From Streptomyces durmitorensis (GTDB taxonomy: Bacteria; Actinomycetota; Actinomycetes; Streptomycetales; Streptomycetaceae), in assembly GCF_023498005.1 (NCBI RefSeq), contig NZ_CP097289.1:2480001-2544000 (forward strand): 64,000 nucleotides of DNA. The letters are read 5' to 3'. Below the pieces are notes generated by a model. The model was not told the DNA's origin. It made no database searches and was given only the letters and a program-made list of their open reading frames with translations. Below, one piece after another: positions 10,210 to 26,964 of this stretch. Every line of letters begins with the position of its first letter. Position 1 is the stretch's first letter. Position numbers and translations under genes: made by a program.

Positions 10210-10350
10210 ATGGACGACACCGCCGAGGGCCCGTTCGCCGAGTGCGTGCTGTGCCGCGAGCCCACCGAGTACCCGGAGACGCACAAGGGCGTGACGCTGT
10301 GCCCCGTGTGCGAGTGGCACGAGGCGCAGCGCACGGCCTGCTCGGGCTGA
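10210..10350 (+). CDS. 46-aa zinc-ribbon-like protein
   Basis: A tiny acidic protein with two Cys-X2-Cys knuckles, CVLC (about residues 13-16) and CPVC (31-34), and a His a few residues after the second. This spacing suits a single structural zinc. The N-terminal ATG has no clear ribosome site, but GATAGTCT lies just upstream, consistent with a leaderless transcript. It is placed between the deacetylase and a convergent ABC permease. Function is unknown; members of this type are conserved and uncharacterised in streptomycetes. Confidence 0.6.
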   Translation: MDDTAEGPFAECVLCREPTEYPETHKGVTLCPVCEWHEAQRTACSG

Positions 10351-17499: not shown

Positions 17500-18267
17500 T
17501 TGCGGCGCATCAACGGCACGGCTCTGATCATCGCGGCACTCGTGGTCACACTGGGCGCACTCGCGTTCCCCATGTGGTCCTACGCCGACCGCTCGGGCAC
17601 GGGGCCCGCCAACCTGGCCGCCGGATCCGTGGCCACACAGTGGGGTCCGCTCTCGGCGGCCGACCGCGATCTGCTGGTGAAGGTGCGGCTCGCGGGACTG
17701 TGGGAGCTGCCCGCGGGCCAGCAGGCCGTCGAACGCGCGCCGACCGAGGCGATCAAGGAGGCGGGTGACCACCTGATCGTCGGCCACACGGACCTCGACA
17801 AGCGGGCCCGTGCGGTCGCGGCGCAGCTTGGCGTGGAGCTGCCGAACCAGCCCACCGCCCAACAGCAGGGCTGGCTCCAGGAGTTGACCGAGGCCGAAGG
17901 CATGGAGTACCAGCGGAAGTTCGCGAATCTGCTGCGGGTCGCACACGGCAAGGTGTTCGCGGTGATCGCGCAGGTGCGGGACAGCACCCGCAACACGCTG
18001 ATACGGCAGCTCGCCAGCGACTCCAACCAGACCGTCCTCGACCACATCACGATGCTGGAGGCCACCGGACTCGTCGACTTCGACGACATCGCGAACGGTG
18101 GCGCCGCCACCGCCACGACCAGCCCCACCGGTCCTCCGCCACCCTCCGGCGTCGCTCCCCCGGAGCCGCCTCCCGCCGGGCCGACGGGCGATGTGTCCAC
18201 GACGTCACGGCCTTCGCCGGCCCCGCCCGGAGAGGTCAACACGGACCGGCCGGAACCTCAAATGTAG
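17500..18267 (+). CDS. DUF4142 exported protein, copy A
   Basis: A 255-aa protein with an N-terminal membrane helix (about residues 8-24) and an extracytoplasmic DUF4142 four-helix domain (about 45-195; LSAADRDLLVKVRLAGLWELPAGQ...HGKVFAVIAQVRDSTRNTLIRQLA). A Pro/Thr-rich tail follows. DUF4142 domains resemble ferritin-like bundles, but no metal role is proven. The TTG start lies 10 nt after GGAGG and is supported by the aligned start of its paralogue at 20862. The two copies bracket the MNIO enzyme and its cysteine-rich candidate substrate, so a part in that system is likely, though only from position. Confidence 0.75.
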   Translation: MRRINGTALIIAALVVTLGALAFPMWSYADRSGTGPANLAAGSVATQWGPLSAADRDLLVKVRLAGLWELPAGQQAVERAPTEAIKEAGDHLIVGHTDLDKRARAVAAQLGVELPNQPTAQQQGWLQELTEAEGMEYQRKFANLLRVAHGKVFAVIAQVRDSTRNTLIRQLASDSNQTVLDHITMLEATGLVDFDDIANGGAATATTSPTGPPPPSGVAPPEPPPAGPTGDVSTTSRPSPAPPGEVNTDRPEPQM

Positions 18268-18298
18268 CTCTGAACGTCCCTCCTCAGGGGTTCGGCGG

Positions 18299-18328
18299 CG
18301 TGTGCGGGGGCCATGACCCCTGCACACG
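18299..18328. terminator. Hairpin between DUF4142-A and the MNIO gene
   Basis: CGTGTGC pairs perfectly with GCACACG, and GGGG with CCCC, around a small loop with one unpaired position. It may end the DUF4142-A transcript or attenuate reading into the MNIO gene, whose start lies 48 nt further on. Confidence 0.5.
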
Positions 18329-18376
18329 TTCACAAGACACGGGCACGACGCGGGGTCTTGGCGGAGGAGGGGGAAC

Positions 18377-19678
18377 ATGAAACATCTGGGGACCGGAATC
18401 GGGTGGCGTCCGGAGATCGCGGACGCCGTGGAGAAGATGCCCGGCATCGACTGGGTCGAGGCCGTCGCGGAGAACCTGTGCCCGGGACACCTCCCCGACT
18501 CCCTCCTGCGGCTGCGCGAGCGCGGCGTCACGGTGGTGCCGCACGGCGTCTCGCTCGGTCTCGGCGGCGCCGACCGCCCCGACGAGACCCGCCTGGCGGC
18601 GCTCGCCGAGCGCGCTCAGGTCCTCGGCTCCCCGCTCGTCACGGAGCACATCGCGTTCGTACGCGCCGGGGGCACGCTGACCGCTTCGCAGCCGCTGGAG
18701 GCGGGCCACCTGCTCCCGGTGCCGCGCACCCGCGACGCCCTCGACGTGCTCTGCGAGAACGTACGCATCGCGCAGGACGCCCTGCCGGTGCCGCTCGCGG
18801 TGGAGAACATCGCGGCGCTGATCTCCTGGCCCGGCGAGGAGATGACGGAGGGGCAGTTCCTGTACGAGCTCGTCGAACGCACGGGCGTACGTCTCCTCAT
18901 CGATGTCGCCAACCTCCACACGAACCACGTCAACCGCGGCGAGGACCCTGCCAAGGCCCTGGACGAGCTGCCCGTCGAGGCCATCGCGTACGTCCATGTC
19001 GCGGGCGGCTTCGAGCGGGACGGCGTCTGGCACGACAGCCACGCCCACCCGGTCCCCGAGCCGGTCCTCGCGATCCTGGCGGACCTGGCGTCACGGGTGA
19101 CCCCGCCGGGCGTCCTCCTGGAGCGGGACGAGAACTTCCCCGCGCCGCAGGAGCTCGAACGGGAGCTGGACGCGATACGGGCGACCGTGCGGACCCGGGC
19201 ACCGGCCTCAGGTGAGTGCGCGACCGGCACGGCACCGGCCGCGCGTCCCGCCGACGTCCCGGCCCCCACCCGCCAGCGTCTCGCCCTCGCCCAGACCGCG
19301 CTTCTCTCCGCGCTCGTCGCGGGGACGCCCGCGCCCGAAGGGTTCGACCGGGCCCGGCTTGCCGTGCAGAGCCGGGCGCTGACCGGCAAGCGGGCGGATG
19401 TCGTGGCGAAGGTGGCGCCCGAGCTGCCGGAGATTCTCGGCAAGGCCTATCGCGCCGAGTTCTCCGCCTACGCCCAGGCACGGCCGATGTCCGGCGGATA
19501 CCGCCGTGACGCGCTGGACTTCGCCGAGCGGCTGCTGCTCGCCGGGCAGCCCGAGGACGCGAAGACGCGCGGCGAGCTGACCCAGTGGTGGCTGGAGCGG
19601 TCCGGGCCCGCGCCGCTGGACGCGCGGCCGGTCACGCGGTGGCTGCGGGCGGCGCGCTTCGCGCTGCGACGGGGATAG
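18377..19678 (+). CDS. MNIO (DUF692) multinuclear iron oxidative enzyme, fused to a C-terminal partner-like domain
   Basis: A 433-aa protein. Residues 1 to about 275 form the DUF692/MNIO TIM barrel with candidate metal ligands H56, H91, E143 (VEN), D176/N179/H181 (DVANLH), H207, D220, H222 (DSHAH) and E249/E252. Characterised relatives (MbnB, TglH, BufB) use two or three irons and oxygen to modify cysteines in peptide substrates. Residues about 290-433 form a second helical domain ([22 protein letters not shown]...FAYAQ-like helices) in the place of the separate partner proteins (MbnC/BufC, DUF2063-like) of those systems, a fusion inferred here. ATG follows GGAGGAGGGGG. The cysteine-rich membrane protein starts 30 nt downstream. 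Confidence 0.82.
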
Positions 19679-19708
19679 ACAGCTGTATACGGGGGATAGG
19701 GAAATACC

Positions 19709-20728
19709 GTGGAAGTTCTGACGATCTGTTACTTCGTGCTGGTCATGGCCTCGTCGACGGTGCTCGCCGTCGGCCTGTCCACGGCGCTGCACGCCGATGT
19801 CCGGCAGCCCGATGCCCAGCACCAAGCCGTGTTCGACCCCCTGGAGGCCGCGTTCCTCGCGGGCGGGCCCGGCAGGGTCACCGATGCCGTGATCACGGCC
19901 ATGCACGAGGACGGCCGACTGGCCGTCGCCGGACCCGGCATCGTCGGCATCCAGCGGTCCGAGGCCCGCAACCCGGTGGAGGGCGCCCTGCTCCAGGTGC
20001 ACGCCGCCGCGCCGAGCGGCGCCCTGCACTGGCTGCGGATCGGCGTGATGCGCAGCCCCGCCGTGCAGGCACTGGGCGACGCGCTGGCCTGGCGCGGCCT
20101 GATGGTACGACCCGAGGCCCTGGCCCGCTGGCGGGTCAAGTCGAGGCTGCACAACGTCGTGACCTTCGCGGGGTTCTTCGTCGTCTGCGTCCTCGGCTTC
20201 GCGGGCGCCGGCGACGGGCCGTCGGGCGGCTCCGTGACCGGCCCGATGGTCCTGCTGTTCGTCGGGGTCTTCATCGGGGGCCTCACGGGCTCGCTCTGCG
20301 CCAAGTCCGCCGACAGCCGGGTCAGCACCGCGGGACGGACCGCGCTCGACCAGTACCGCGCCGCCAACGCCCATGCGTACGACGCGATGAACCGAGTGGC
20401 CATCGGCGGCCTGAACGGCGTGCTCGACCCCGAGCTGCGGGCACAGCTGACCGCCGCGTACGGGATCCGGCCCAGGCGTCCGGCGGCCCCCCATCTGCTG
20501 TCGCATTCGAGCGGCTCGGGGTACGTGTGCTCGTCGAGCAGCCCCTCGTGGTGCGGCGGGGGTGGCGGCTCGGCCTGCGGGGGCGGCGGCTGCGGAAATT
20601 CCGGCGGCGGAGGCGGGTCATCCTGCGGAAGTTCCGGCGGCGGAGGCGGGTCATCCTGCGGAAGTTCCAGCGGCGGAGGCGGGGGCGGCTGCGGGGGTGG
20701 CGGCGGAGGCGGAGGCGGCGGTTCCTGA
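19709..20728 (+). CDS. TIGR04222-type membrane protein with repetitive Cys/Gly/Ser tail, candidate MNIO substrate
   Basis: A 339-aa protein. An N-terminal membrane helix (about 3-25) is followed by a conserved region (FDPLEAAFLAGGPGRVTDAVI, 43-63) and two more helices (about 150-166, 180-198). From residue 264 the chain is almost only Gly, Ser and Cys, with cysteines at 274, 282, 290, 295, 306, 317 and 328. The last three spacings are exactly 11 residues. As I recall, TIGR04222 was defined as a domain preceding such low-complexity tails and occurring beside DUF692 genes. The GTG start lies behind a GGGATAGGGA site and 30 nt from the MNIO stop. The tail is the likely modified part. Confidence 0.75.
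   Translation: MEVLTICYFVLVMASSTVLAVGLSTALHADVRQPDAQHQAVFDPLEAAFLAGGPGRVTDAVITAMHEDGRLAVAGPGIVGIQRSEARNPVEGALLQVHAAAPSGALHWLRIGVMRSPAVQALGDALAWRGLMVRPEALARWRVKSRLHNVVTFAGFFVVCVLGFAGAGDGPSGGSVTGPMVLLFVGVFIGGLTGSLCAKSADSRVSTAGRTALDQYRAANAHAYDAMNRVAIGGLNGVLDPELRAQLTAAYGIRPRRPAAPHLLSHSSGSGYVCSSSSPSWCGGGGGSACGGGGCGNSGGGGGSSCGSSGGGGGSSCGSSSGGGGGGCGGGGGGGGGGS
20591..20689 (+). repeat. 33-bp tandem repeat coding the cysteine-rich tail
   Basis: Three 33-bp units starting at 20591, 20624 and 20657 each begin with TGC GGA and encode an 11-residue block Cys-Gly-(Asn/Ser)-Ser-(Gly/Ser) followed by glycines and serines. Copies 1 and 2 differ at one base. The array sets the cysteine spacing, so copy-number change would add or remove one cysteine at a time without a frameshift. 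Confidence 0.9.
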
Positions 20729-20861
20729 CCGCTCTGCCATGGGCACGGGCCCACCCGCACGCAATACCCCTCACCCGTACGGAAGTTGACGTACTCCGGG
20801 CGGTAATCCGCGAGCGCCTCCCCGCCGCGCACTAACGTGCGGCGGTGCAACAGGAGGCGTC

Positions 20862-21740
20862 ATGCGATCCATCAACGGCACCGGCCTGATCGTCGCGGGG
20901 CTCGTCGCGACGCTGGCCGCGCTGCTCTTCCCGCTCTGGTCGTACGAGGACAGGTCGGGCACCGCCCTGGACAGACTCGACGCGGAGACCGTGTCGACGG
21001 AGTTCGGCCCGCTCTCCGCGCTCGACCGCGACTTCATCACCAAGGTGCGGCTCGCGGGCCTCTGGGAGCTCCCCGCCGGACAGCAGGCCGAGGTGCGCGG
21101 CACCACCAAGGCCGTCCAGACCGCGGGCGAGCATCTCGTCGAGGGCCATACGTTCCTGGACGCGCGGGTGCGCGAGGTGGCGACGCAGCTCAATCTTGAG
21201 CTGCCCAATCAGCCGACCTCGCAGCAGCGGGGCTGGCTCGACGAGATGAGCGACGCGCACGGCGACGCGTACGACGAGAAGTTCGCCAACATCCTGCGCG
21301 CCGCCCACGGCAAGGTCTTCTCGGTGGTCGCGGAGGTCCGCGCGACCACCCGCAACTCGCTGGTGCGCACGCTCGCCGACGACGCCAACACGACGGTCCT
21401 CGACCACATCACGGTCCTGGAGGGCACGGGCCTCGTCGACTTCGACGACCTGGCGCGCGACGCGGCGTCGGGGGCCCCCGCCCCGGTGACCCGCTCCCCC
21501 GCACCGCCGGGCCCGGCCGCGTCCCCGGATCCGGCGACCCCGGTCTCCCCCTCCCCCACGTTCCCGCTGCCCCCGCCTGCGTCCCGCCCCAAGCCCACGG
21601 AGTCGGCGGAGTCCGAGGCAGACAAGGAGGACAAGAGGAAGGAAAAGGAGAAGGACAAGGAGGAGGGCAAGGAGAAGGGCGAGCCCCGCAGCAAAGCGGA
21701 ACGTTACGTACCCGCGATCCCCCGTCCGCATGCTGAATAA
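20862..21740 (+). CDS. DUF4142 exported protein, copy B
   Basis: A 292-aa paralogue of the protein at 17500. The start MRSINGTGLIVAGLVATLAALLFPLWSYEDRSGT is nearly superimposable on copy A, as are LRLAGLWELPAGQQ-type and HGKVFSVVAEVRATTRNSLVR motifs. It has one N-terminal membrane helix, an extracytoplasmic DUF4142 bundle, a Pro-rich linker, and then a highly charged Lys/Glu tail (about 245-275) absent from copy A. ATG 20862 follows CAGGAGGCGTC. It lies between the two TIGR04222-type genes, and the next gene starts within or just after its end. Confidence 0.78.
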   Translation: MRSINGTGLIVAGLVATLAALLFPLWSYEDRSGTALDRLDAETVSTEFGPLSALDRDFITKVRLAGLWELPAGQQAEVRGTTKAVQTAGEHLVEGHTFLDARVREVATQLNLELPNQPTSQQRGWLDEMSDAHGDAYDEKFANILRAAHGKVFSVVAEVRATTRNSLVRTLADDANTTVLDHITVLEGTGLVDFDDLARDAASGAPAPVTRSPAPPGPAASPDPATPVSPSPTFPLPPPASRPKPTESAESEADKEDKRKEKEKDKEEGKEKGEPRSKAERYVPAIPRPHAE

Positions 21741-21780
21741 CCCATGGCGCGGCCCCCGCCCCCTCGCATACAACACCGGC

Positions 21781-22542
21781 ATGTTCTGGCTTCCGCTCCT
21801 TCTCGTGGCCTGGGTCGCGACGGGCCTTTCCTGCGCGCGGCTGTGCCTCACGGCGTACCGCACCGCCCCGCACGGCGCGGCCCCGGGGCACCGCCGTGAA
21901 CTGACGCTCTACGAAGCCGCGTTCCTCTCCGGCGGCCCCGGGCGCGTCACCGACCTCACCCTGGTGTCGATGGCCCGCACCCGGCGGCTGCTGCTCGCGC
22001 ACACCGGCTGGGCGACCGTCGTCGACCCGGTGGGCGGCGACGACATGGAGCGCTCCGTGCTCGGCGCGATAGGCCCTGCCGGACAGTCGCCGATAGCGCC
22101 GGTGCGCCGGGCCGCGGCGGGCACCGACGCGATGCGCGCCCTCGCGGACCGCCTGGTCGCCGCGGGCCTGGCCCAGCCGGACGGCGTCTGGTCGGGGGTC
22201 GCGGGAGCGGTCCGGCAGGTGCGGGCGGCCACCGTGGCGGTGGTCGCGCTGGGGGCCGTCGCCCTGCTGATGCCCGTCCAGGAGCCGCCGGGAGAGGTGC
22301 CCGTGGCGCTCTGGTTCGCACTGCCCCTGGTCCTGAACGCGAGCTGCCTCGCCGTCGCCCGCTTCGAGATCCACCCCTACCCCCGCTGGGCGTCGCCCGC
22401 GGGCCAGCTCCTCCTGAGCGCGCTCCCGGCGCGCGGCGGCTCCGACCTCACCGCCGTGGCCGTACGCGGCACGCGCGCGCTCGCCGACCCGGAGCTGCGT
22501 GCGGCGTTCGCACACCGGGACGCGGCGCATCGGGGTCATTGA
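21781..22542 (+). CDS. TIGR04222-type membrane protein without the Cys-rich tail
   Basis: A 253-aa paralogue of the protein at 19709. It has an N-terminal membrane helix, the shared core ELTLYEAAFLSGGPGRVTDLTLVSMARTRRLLL, a middle helical region, two more membrane helices (about 150-168, 176-194) and a C-terminal ADPELRAAFAHRD matching DPELRAQLTAAYG of the longer protein. It ends where the other enters its Gly/Ser/Cys tail, so it lacks the presumed substrate part and may be a partner or decoy subunit. ATG 21781 is chosen at the membrane helix. ATG 21730 would overlap the upstream stop by 11 bases; neither has a clear ribosome site. Confidence 0.7.
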   Translation: MFWLPLLLVAWVATGLSCARLCLTAYRTAPHGAAPGHRRELTLYEAAFLSGGPGRVTDLTLVSMARTRRLLLAHTGWATVVDPVGGDDMERSVLGAIGPAGQSPIAPVRRAAAGTDAMRALADRLVAAGLAQPDGVWSGVAGAVRQVRAATVAVVALGAVALLMPVQEPPGEVPVALWFALPLVLNASCLAVARFEIHPYPRWASPAGQLLLSALPARGGSDLTAVAVRGTRALADPELRAAFAHRDAAHRGH

Positions 22543-24788: not shown

Positions 24789-25508
24789 CTAGGCGAGGCC
24801 CGCCACGAGGTCGGCCACCGACTTGCGGCGGCCGGTGTAGAACGGCACCTCTTCGCGGACGTGCATGCGGGCCTCGGAGGCGCGCAGGTGCCGCATGAGG
24901 TCGACGATGCGGTAGAGCTCGTCGGCCTCGAAGGCGAGCAGCCACTCGTAGTCGCCGAGCGAGAACGAGGCGACCGTGTTGGCGCGCACGTCGGGGTAGC
25001 CGCGGGCCATCATGCCGTGGTCCTTGAGCATGCGGCGACGGTCCTCGTCGGGCAGCAGGTACCAGTCGTAGGAGCGCACGAAGGGGTAGACGCTGATGTA
25101 GTTGCGCGGCGTCTCGTCGGCCAGGAAGGCCGGGATGTGCGACTTGTTGAACTCGGCGGGGCGGTGCAGCGCCATGTTCGACCAGACCGGCTCCAGGGCG
25201 CGGCCGAGCTTGGTGCGGCGGAAGAGGTTGTAGGCCTCCTGCAGCTCGTCGGAGGTCTCGGCGTGCCACCAGATCATGACGTCGGCGTCGGCGCGCAGGC
25301 CCGACACGTCGTACGTGCCGCGGACGGTGATGTCCTTGGCGGCGAGCTGGTCGAACAGCTCCTGGACCTCGTCGGCATAGCCGGCGCGGTCCTCAGGGAG
25401 CAGGTCCTTCAGCTTGAAGACGGACCACAGCGTGTAGCGGATGACCTCGTTGAGGTCCTTGGCCTTCTTGCCCGCGTTCGGGCTCTTGGCGGGGGCGTCG
25501 TCACTCAT
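24789..25508 (-). CDS. hemQ: Coproheme decarboxylase
   Basis: A 239-aa chlorite-dismutase-fold enzyme that converts coproheme to heme b by two oxidative decarboxylations, the last step of the actinobacterial coproporphyrin pathway. The family pattern is clear: [31 protein letters not shown] (reactive tyrosine region) and [32 protein letters not shown] (proximal heme region). Length is typical. It lies 4 nt downstream of the gene for the preceding pathway enzyme, so the two are coupled. It acts in the cytoplasm or at the membrane face. Confidence 0.92.
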
Positions 25509-25512
25509 GGCC

Positions 25513-26964
25513 CTATTCTCCTCCGCCGCCGTGCAGGCTCTGCACCGGGTTGGCGGTGAGCTCCTGCACACTGGCCAGGTCGCCGCCCAGCTGGTCGACG
25601 GCGGCATAGGCGCTCGCGATGCACGCGGGGATGCCCACGCCGTCGTACGCGGCTCCGCACACGGCGAGGCCGGGCAGCTTGCTCACGTGCTCGCGGACGC
25701 GGGCCACGCGCGCGTAGTGGCCGACGGGGTACTGCGGCAGGCCGTCGTGCCAGCGGGTGACGCGGGTGGCGACGGGCTCGGCGTCGAGGCCGGTGGCCGC
25801 GCGCAGGTCGCGCCGGGAGAGGGCGACGAGGTCGGCGTCGTCGCGCTCCAGAATCGCTGTTTCGCCGTACCGCCCCACCGAAGTGCGCAGAACCAGCAGG
25901 TCAGGGTTCTCCTCGGCGATCCAGCCCCACTTGCGCGAGGCGAAGGTGGACGCCTTGATGGTGTGCCCGTCGATCGGCGGCACGAGAAAACCGCTGCCTT
26001 CGGGGAGGTCGATCTCGCTGCGGCGGTAGGCGAGGGTCATCAGGGCCATGGAGGCGTACTCCACGGTGGCGAGCTCGGCCGCGGCGGCGGGCGCCTCGAC
26101 GCCGAGCAGCGCGGCAGCGGCGTACGCGGGCACGGCGACGACCACGGCATCGGCGTCGATGGTCTGCTCGGCGGTGCTCACCTGCCAGCCCTCCGGGGTG
26201 CGCCGCAGCTCGGTGACGGGCACCCCGGTGCGGATCTCACCGCCACGCGCGCGTACCGAATCGGCGACGGCGAGCGGCAGTTGGCCGACGCCGCCCTCGA
26301 TGCCCATGAAGACGGGGCCGGTCTGCTGGTTCTGCGCGGCACGCGCCTGGATGTCACGCACGCCCTCCGTGAGCGAGGCGTGCGTACGGGCGGCCTCGAA
26401 GAGCTGCGGGACGGCCGAGCGCATGGAGATGCGGTAGGCGTCCCCCGCGTACACCCCGCCCAGCAGTGGCTCCACGAGCCGGTCGACGACCTCGCGGCCC
26501 AGGCGCGCGGCGACGTACTCACCGACCGCGACGTCGTCCCCGACCTTGGTGGGCGGCAGTTCACGGTCCTGCTCGATGCGGTGGAGCCCTTCGTCGGAGA
26601 GCACTCCGGAGAGGGCCGACGCGTCGCCGGGTACGCCCATGACGTGGCCCTTGGGCATCGGCCGCAGGGCCCCGCGGGTCCAGATCGCGGCGGTCGCGGT
26701 GGCGGGCGCCTGCATCCGGTCGGCGAGGCCCACCTCGCGGGCGAGGGCGACGGCCTCCGGGCGGCGGGCCAGCATCGACTCGGCGCCGAGGTCGACGCGG
26801 ACGCCCTCGATCTCGCCGGGGAGCAGCTTGCCGCCGAGCCGGTCGGAGGCTTCCAGGACGGTCACGCGGGACCCGGTGTCGAGCAATCGGTGTGCGGCGG
26901 CCAGTCCGGCGATCCCGCCACCGATGACAACGACATGACCCGTACGTGTGTCCGTTTCGCGCAT
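25513..26964 (-). CDS. hemY: Coproporphyrinogen III oxidase (protoporphyrinogen oxidase family)
   Basis: A 483-aa FAD enzyme that oxidises coproporphyrinogen III to coproporphyrin III (also named CgoX). The N-terminal FAD-binding turn [17 protein letters not shown] is at about residues 10-26, [17 protein letters not shown] follows, and the C-terminal flavin motif is [28 protein letters not shown]. It is directly upstream of hemQ on the same strand with a 4-nt gap, and hemE lies 2.7 kb away. The coproporphyrin-specific role follows from the presence of hemQ. Confidence 0.9.

Follow-up and report, generated by a model that had tools for sequence, protein, structure and literature searches.

A Streptomyces MNIO enzyme with a fused partner-like domain, next to a membrane protein whose cysteine tail is predicted to be cytosolic

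Introduction

The products of MNIO enzymes include copper-binding and other modified peptides. TglI and MbnC, the partners of the MNIO enzymes TglH and MbnB, are separate proteins, and the substrates of TglH and MbnB are small free peptides. Here we examine an MNIO (DUF692) gene and its neighbors in a 64,000-nucleotide (nt) stretch of Streptomyces durmitorensis (assembly GCF_023498005.1, contig NZ_CP097289.1, positions 2,480,001 to 2,544,000), which we call the window and whose own coordinates are used throughout. Five genes at 17500-22542, all on the plus strand, encode in order a DUF4142 protein, the MNIO enzyme, a TIGR04222 membrane protein with a cysteine-rich tail (TIGR-A), a second DUF4142 protein, and a TIGR04222 membrane protein that lacks such a tail (TIGR-B). 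An earlier note, made from the letters of this DNA, had listed one MNIO, two TIGR04222, and two DUF4142 genes in one direction, and family matches bear out that gene content.

The closest described systems are the MNIO-TIGR04222 clusters of Antoine et al. (2025; PMC12452194), which are found mostly in Actinomycetota and for which a Ser/Gly-rich Cys tail was proposed as the substrate. According to the available text of that paper, MNIO genes are preceded by genes for over 1,000 Cys proteins that have no signal peptide; of these, 40% are TIGR04222 proteins, and subsets are likely MNIO substrates. The tail was predicted to be periplasmic from models of two TIGR04222 proteins, one from Micromonospora and one from Pirellula. 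PME-type 2 partners are encoded in at least 10% of the TIGR04222 clusters, and many clusters seem to be without a partner gene. For the TIGR04222 proteins, which make up a large class of candidate MNIO substrates, the available text reports no product; nor does it report a fusion of an MNIO to a partner, and DUF4142 is absent from the main text. The window cluster is of the published type, in that a TIGR04222 gene adjoins the MNIO gene and encodes a Ser/Gly-rich Cys tail. The association, which the earlier note had taken to be undescribed, had therefore already been published.

Results

The enzyme gene (18377-19678) encodes 433 amino acids, and its catalytic domain (18377-19186) matches PF05114 over residues 6 to 270 (E value 5.3e-78, 262 bits). 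This domain aligns to TglH (8hci_D), 3bww, and MbnB (7dz9), and the window enzyme keeps the near-invariant residues H53, H88, E140, D173, N176, H204, D217, H219, and E246. The conserved H, D, E, and N residues are presumably Fe ligands. A Pfam scan of the window protein gave no match beyond residue 270, and precomputed Pfam labels the C-terminal part (19247-19675) PF26136, under the source name "SCO6045-like C-terminal domain." Across the loci that we compared, this domain is fused to the MNIO or encoded directly after it in 82 of 84, with 58 in the same open reading frame (ORF) and 24 in a separate one. In a 143-residue model, TglI and MbnC are the best structural matches to its predicted fold, with modest Z scores. 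The model is all helical with no strands and thus lacks the RRE-type second domain of PME-type 1 proteins; in this it is like the short PME-type 2 proteins, as they are described in the available text of PMC12452194. The window's own domain did not match DUF2063 (PF09836). Three of nine stand-alone relatives matched that family at E values of 5.6e-6 to 1.8e-5, slightly below the curated cutoff, and one split copy encoded after an MNIO matched at 7e-5. From placement and predicted fold, then, the last ~140 residues of the enzyme look like an MNIO partner domain, which the earlier note had overlooked. For Streptomyces, such a fusion offers a reason why clusters seem to be without a partner gene. 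As a separate observation, three Streptomyces genomes (G031, G090, and G099; loci L012, L013, and L014) carry second, bufferin-type MNIO sites that adjoin an ordinary DUF2063 gene.

We determined how often the MNIO and TIGR04222 genes lie together. Among 101 Streptomyces genomes, MNIO occurs in 96, TIGR04222 in 90, and DUF4142 in 97. At least 84 of the 96 MNIO-bearing genomes have an MNIO and a TIGR04222 gene no more than 8 kb apart, and 116 of 150 Streptomyces TIGR04222 places, among the matches listed, are within 8 kb of an MNIO. Across the class, 39 of 197 genomes have an MNIO; 24 of these are not Streptomyces, and by coordinates a TIGR04222 gene adjoins the MNIO in 18 of the 24. Loci were examined in 59 regions chosen from 110 Streptomyces MNIO places, together with one MNIO-less control, and in 25 non-Streptomyces MNIO regions. 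Outside Streptomyces, the TIGR04222 gene linked to the MNIO lies upstream of it in 19/19 cases, and within Streptomyces the Cys-tailed TIGR04222 gene lies downstream in 40/40. A TIGR04222 protein of S. venezuelae is among those with a Cys tail. Outside Streptomyces, 17 of the 19 linked TIGR04222 proteins bear a Cys tail. In the comparison of loci with and without a tail, our own TIGR04222 profile missed the MNIO-adjacent protein of one region (L105), which the curated model finds and which was miscounted as tailless, and the Streptomyces counts are unaffected. The earlier note had proposed a neighborhood analysis of DUF692 with TIGR04222 and DUF4142, and the linkage of MNIO and TIGR04222 is far beyond chance. 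Seven of 15 unlinked TIGR04222 proteins (L129 to L143) still carry at least three Cys beyond the domain; a Cys tail therefore does not strictly require a neighboring MNIO.

TIGR-A (19709-20728; TIGR04222 E value 1.4e-33) starts 30 nt past the MNIO gene. Its Cys/Gly/Ser tail (20549-20725), the predicted MNIO substrate, opens with a WC motif that is present in 55 of 56 homologous tails. These tails have a median of 7 Cys, and 93% of their residues are G, S, or C. A six-frame scan based on composition only found a single Cys-tail-like segment in the 64-kb window, at 20498-20662. In 828 kb from 60 related regions, the same scan found 34 segments, one per locus, marking 34 of the 39 loci with a Cys-tailed protein and none of the 20 without one (defined below). 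Because the scan finds one segment in the window and one in each related locus that it marks, the tail is not a chance feature. This agrees with the earlier note, which had named the tail of the membrane protein 30 nt from the enzyme gene as the nearest Cys-rich sequence; of the sequences nearby, it is the strongest candidate for the substrate.

The topology of TIGR-A was predicted from charge distribution. The layout consists of a short N terminus outside the cell, a first transmembrane (TM) helix, a domain split by a TM2-TM3 hairpin, and then the tail. By the positive-inside rule, charge bias places the tail in the cytoplasm in 55/55 scorable homologues and in 11 of 12 scorable non-Streptomyces proteins, a scored set that leaves out the two TIGR04222 proteins named in PMC12452194. 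This charge distribution points to a cytoplasmic tail, predicted to share a compartment with the enzyme. Six non-Streptomyces Cys-tailed TIGR04222 proteins (L104, L107, L112, L118, L124, and L126) have a common (D/E)TWGI(S/P)GP motif before TM1, predicted to lie outside. The model of TIGR-A has a predicted local distance difference test (pLDDT) score of 78.9, and most of the tail scores below 50. Structural matches to the predicted domain (residues 37 to 254) include GOLPH3 and a chain of a Sac1/Vps74 complex, a weak resemblance, and HHalign of a mixed TIGR04222 set against actinobacterial GPP34 gave 59% probability. The TIGR04222 domain is thus possibly GPP34/GOLPH3-like. We did not use the top structural matches to ClyA, ExbB, F-BAR, and similar proteins, which are long-helix matches. 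A sequence search of the PDB with a TIGR-A profile returned just low-complexity-tail matches and similar noise. TIGR-A gave no family match to the Buf1 domain (DUF2282), and in the model its first helix forms a long N-terminal TM segment (no signal-peptide predictor was run).

Next, we compared loci with and without the tail. A TIGR04222 protein with at least three Cys after the domain is encoded nearby in 39 of the 59 Streptomyces MNIO loci and not in the other 20. In the MNIO tree, all 20 tailless loci and the window form one group of 21 rows with support of 93/92, and a fork with support of 99/92 holds 19 of the tailless loci and the window. Since the window is the sole Cys-tailed member of this group, the tail must have been lost several times, or lost and later regained. 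The MNIO has 16 near-invariant H, D, E, and N residues; all 20 tailless loci keep 15 of these, and N125 is kept in 19. The median ratio of nonsynonymous to synonymous differences per site (pN/pS) for the catalytic domain is 0.153 in tailless loci and 0.276 in the others, values to be read with synonymous sites near saturation and group divergence differing. By these sequence measures, the fused enzyme of the tailless clade is intact and under purifying selection at least as strong as in the other loci. It follows that something besides a neighboring Cys tail probably maintains the MNIO and that the tail is probably not its only substrate, another probably being encoded elsewhere.

We looked for such a substrate near the MNIO. 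A same-strand ORF scan for a hidden Cys-rich peptide near the MNIO in the 20 tailless loci gave apparent out-of-frame noise and one small, conserved, Cys-rich, zinc-ribbon-like protein, F10 (10219-10347 in the window; 10022-10210 in L101). Gene-family clustering and the composition scan found no other small Cys-rich family near the MNIO in these loci. F10 is present in 71/101 Streptomyces genomes and in 0/5 of those lacking an MNIO; it is not favored as an alternative substrate because 25 of the 96 genomes with an MNIO lack it. A search of nine genomes for a WCGGG pattern gave no excess over a reversed-pattern control. In one tailless genome, G009, an extra TIGR04222 copy (L129) carries 3 Cys beyond the domain.

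TIGR-B (21781-22542; TIGR04222 E value 9e-38) lies in an ORF that opens at 21730; judged against relatives, 21781 is the more likely start. It has a CxxxC motif at the predicted cytosolic end of TM1 (21832-21846) and one Cys in TM3. By alignment, all three Cys are retained in 15/18 proteins from tailless loci, 19/24 from tailed loci, and 49/61 from named genomes. The three-Cys set is a possible metal or redox site. In one MNIO-less Streptomyces genome (G047; region L098), TIGR-B is kept together with the hydrolase, HemQ, and HemG genes, and the second TIGR-B Cys is lost; this is a single case.

The two DUF4142 proteins of the window, A (17500-18267; TTG start; PF13628 E value 3.9e-18) and B (20862-21740; E value 6.4e-19), contain no Cys. 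Protein A has a signal anchor and is predicted to be extracellular; protein B has a signal-anchor motif followed by a Pro/Ser-rich and then a charged tail. Those MNIO-linked DUF4142 proteins that we compared have a common signal-anchor motif, NGTxLI...FPxWSYADRSG, which among the unlinked Streptomyces proteins compared occurs just in L240, from an MNIO-less, fragmented genome. With a profile grown from copy B over the fetched loci, which distant members may escape, a DUF4142 gene was found within 6.5 kb downstream of the MNIO in 16/59 Streptomyces loci (13 of them without a Cys-tailed TIGR04222 gene) and within 3 kb upstream in 17/59. The full five-gene set, with DUF4142 on both sides and both a Cys-tailed and a tailless TIGR04222 gene by our own profiles, is rare (2/59; the window and L047). 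Thus, the one functional unit suggested by the earlier note is not a fixed one. A downstream DUF4142 gene is present in 13/20 tailless loci and in 3/39 tailed loci, the window among the 3 (Fisher P = 7e-6, with the tailless loci being one clade and not independent). In the tailless clade it often occupies the place of the Cys-tailed gene, and the window has both. Our profile found no DUF4142 in the 25 non-Streptomyces MNIO regions, where PF13628 was not run. As MNIO substrates the DUF4142 proteins are not favored, given that the window copies have no Cys, are predicted to be exported, and, among the proteins compared, tails are not conserved as a core peptide would be.

Beyond an alpha/beta hydrolase gene lie a HemQ gene (24789-25607) and a protoporphyrinogen oxidase gene (25513-26964), both on the minus strand and convergent to the cluster. 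Of the 60 Streptomyces regions, 54 contain the HemQ family and 53 the oxidase family.

Discussion

We propose, with a probability of about one-half, that the cytoplasmic MNIO-partner fusion modifies the Cys tail of TIGR-A to make a membrane-tethered metal or redox buffer. In this mechanism, an MNIO fused to a substrate-handling partner domain would act as a one-protein enzyme on the Cys/Gly/Ser tail in the cytoplasm. TIGR-A would be anchored by its three TM helices, and a possibly GPP34-like domain would present the tail on the cytosolic face. Some tail cysteines might be converted oxidatively, by analogy with the thiooxazole or thioamide groups of other MNIO products, and the product would be a metal-binding or redox-buffering polymer tethered to the membrane inside the cell. 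TIGR-B could serve as an unmodified partner with its three-Cys site at the same membrane face, and the DUF4142 proteins could be accessories acting outside the cell. The same MNIO probably also modifies a substrate encoded elsewhere.

The enzyme's main substrate could instead be another protein or one encoded elsewhere, leaving the tail an occasional substrate at most or an unmodified metal-binding neighbor. Several observations weigh in that direction. The Streptomyces clade keeps the MNIO and its partner domain, under selection at least as strong, with no nearby Cys tail in 20 of 21 loci. One locus outside the 59 (L243, in G045) has the MNIO-partner fusion and, by our own profiles, no TIGR04222 or DUF4142 gene in the 12.8 kb covered. 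Among the 20 tailless genomes, the number of TIGR04222 matches is one in nine genomes, zero in G013, and two to four in the remaining 10. However, the tail occurs on 17 of 19 linked proteins outside Streptomyces, and the pairing survives a flipped gene order. Moreover, no alternative Cys-rich substrate was recognized near the MNIO in tailless loci apart from F10, the rest of these genomes not having been effectively searched. Taken together, we consider a main substrate elsewhere doubtful.

The published view would instead place the tail outside the membrane, modified before export and serving in the envelope as a membrane-anchored, bufferin-like protein. The periplasmic prediction for the Micromonospora and Pirellula proteins favors it, as does the export of bufferins once they are modified, both per the available text of PMC12452194. 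Against this stand the opposite charge bias in all 55 scorable homologues and in 11 of 12 non-Streptomyces proteins, albeit in a set without those two proteins, and the weak resemblance of the TIGR04222 domain to GPP34. The eukaryotic members of GPP34 are cytosolic. An envelope role of this kind therefore seems to us quite improbable. For the DUF4142 proteins, the chance is only a little short of even that both stand outside the modification system, as exported envelope proteins in the same neighborhood; their lack of Cys, their predicted location, and their patchy presence beside the MNIO all suit that idea. The specific signal-anchor motif of the linked proteins speaks for a tie to the system, as does the preference of the downstream gene for loci without a Cys-tailed neighbor, within one clade. 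Extended to actinomycetes at large, the proposal becomes a Cys/Gly polymer that is oxidatively modified, faces the cytosol, and is tethered to the membrane by a GPP34-like scaffold, with the fused Streptomyces MNIO also serving a second substrate that keeps the tailless-clade enzyme under selection. We offer this full combination as a tentative and, taken whole, rather unlikely model.

If the tail is indeed cytosolic, the metal or redox buffer would sit inside the cell and not in the envelope, and one would no longer need to explain how a soluble enzyme gains access to a tail that is exported. The tailless clade is a natural experiment for finding a second MNIO substrate. In wild-type S. coelicolor, H2O2 induces 28 genes, among them SCO6045 (3.01-fold) and genes for sulfonate uptake and cysteine synthesis, and in an hsr mutant no gene passed the up-regulation cut, as given in the available text of PMC4991794. 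That SCO6045 corresponds to this MNIO rests on the domain name in the sources. The induction, a single data point, fits a cysteine-linked role.

Among known systems, TglH-TglI and MbnB-MbnC also combine an MNIO with a helical partner, whose fold the C-terminal domain best matches; here, in contrast, the partner-like domain is fused and the candidate substrate is the tail of a membrane protein. Bufferins (Buf1 and Buf2) are Cys-rich MNIO products with a DUF2063-type partner, and Buf1 has been shown to chelate copper, according to the available text of PMC12452194. They differ in having Sec signal peptides and full-length DUF2063-RRE partners, whereas here the protein is TM anchored and the DUF2063-like half stands alone. 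Relative to GPP34/GOLPH3, TIGR04222 adds an inserted TM hairpin, an N-terminal TM helix, and, here, the Cys tail. Compared with the clusters of PMC12452194, the window has an enzyme with a fused partner-like domain, a tail predicted from charge to be cytosolic rather than periplasmic, and DUF4142 genes. Literature searches found no published description of the fused partner, the predicted cytosolic tail, or the tailless clade. Thus, the MNIO-TIGR04222 pairing was already known, and the fused partner, cytosolic tail, and tail-free branch appear to be new.
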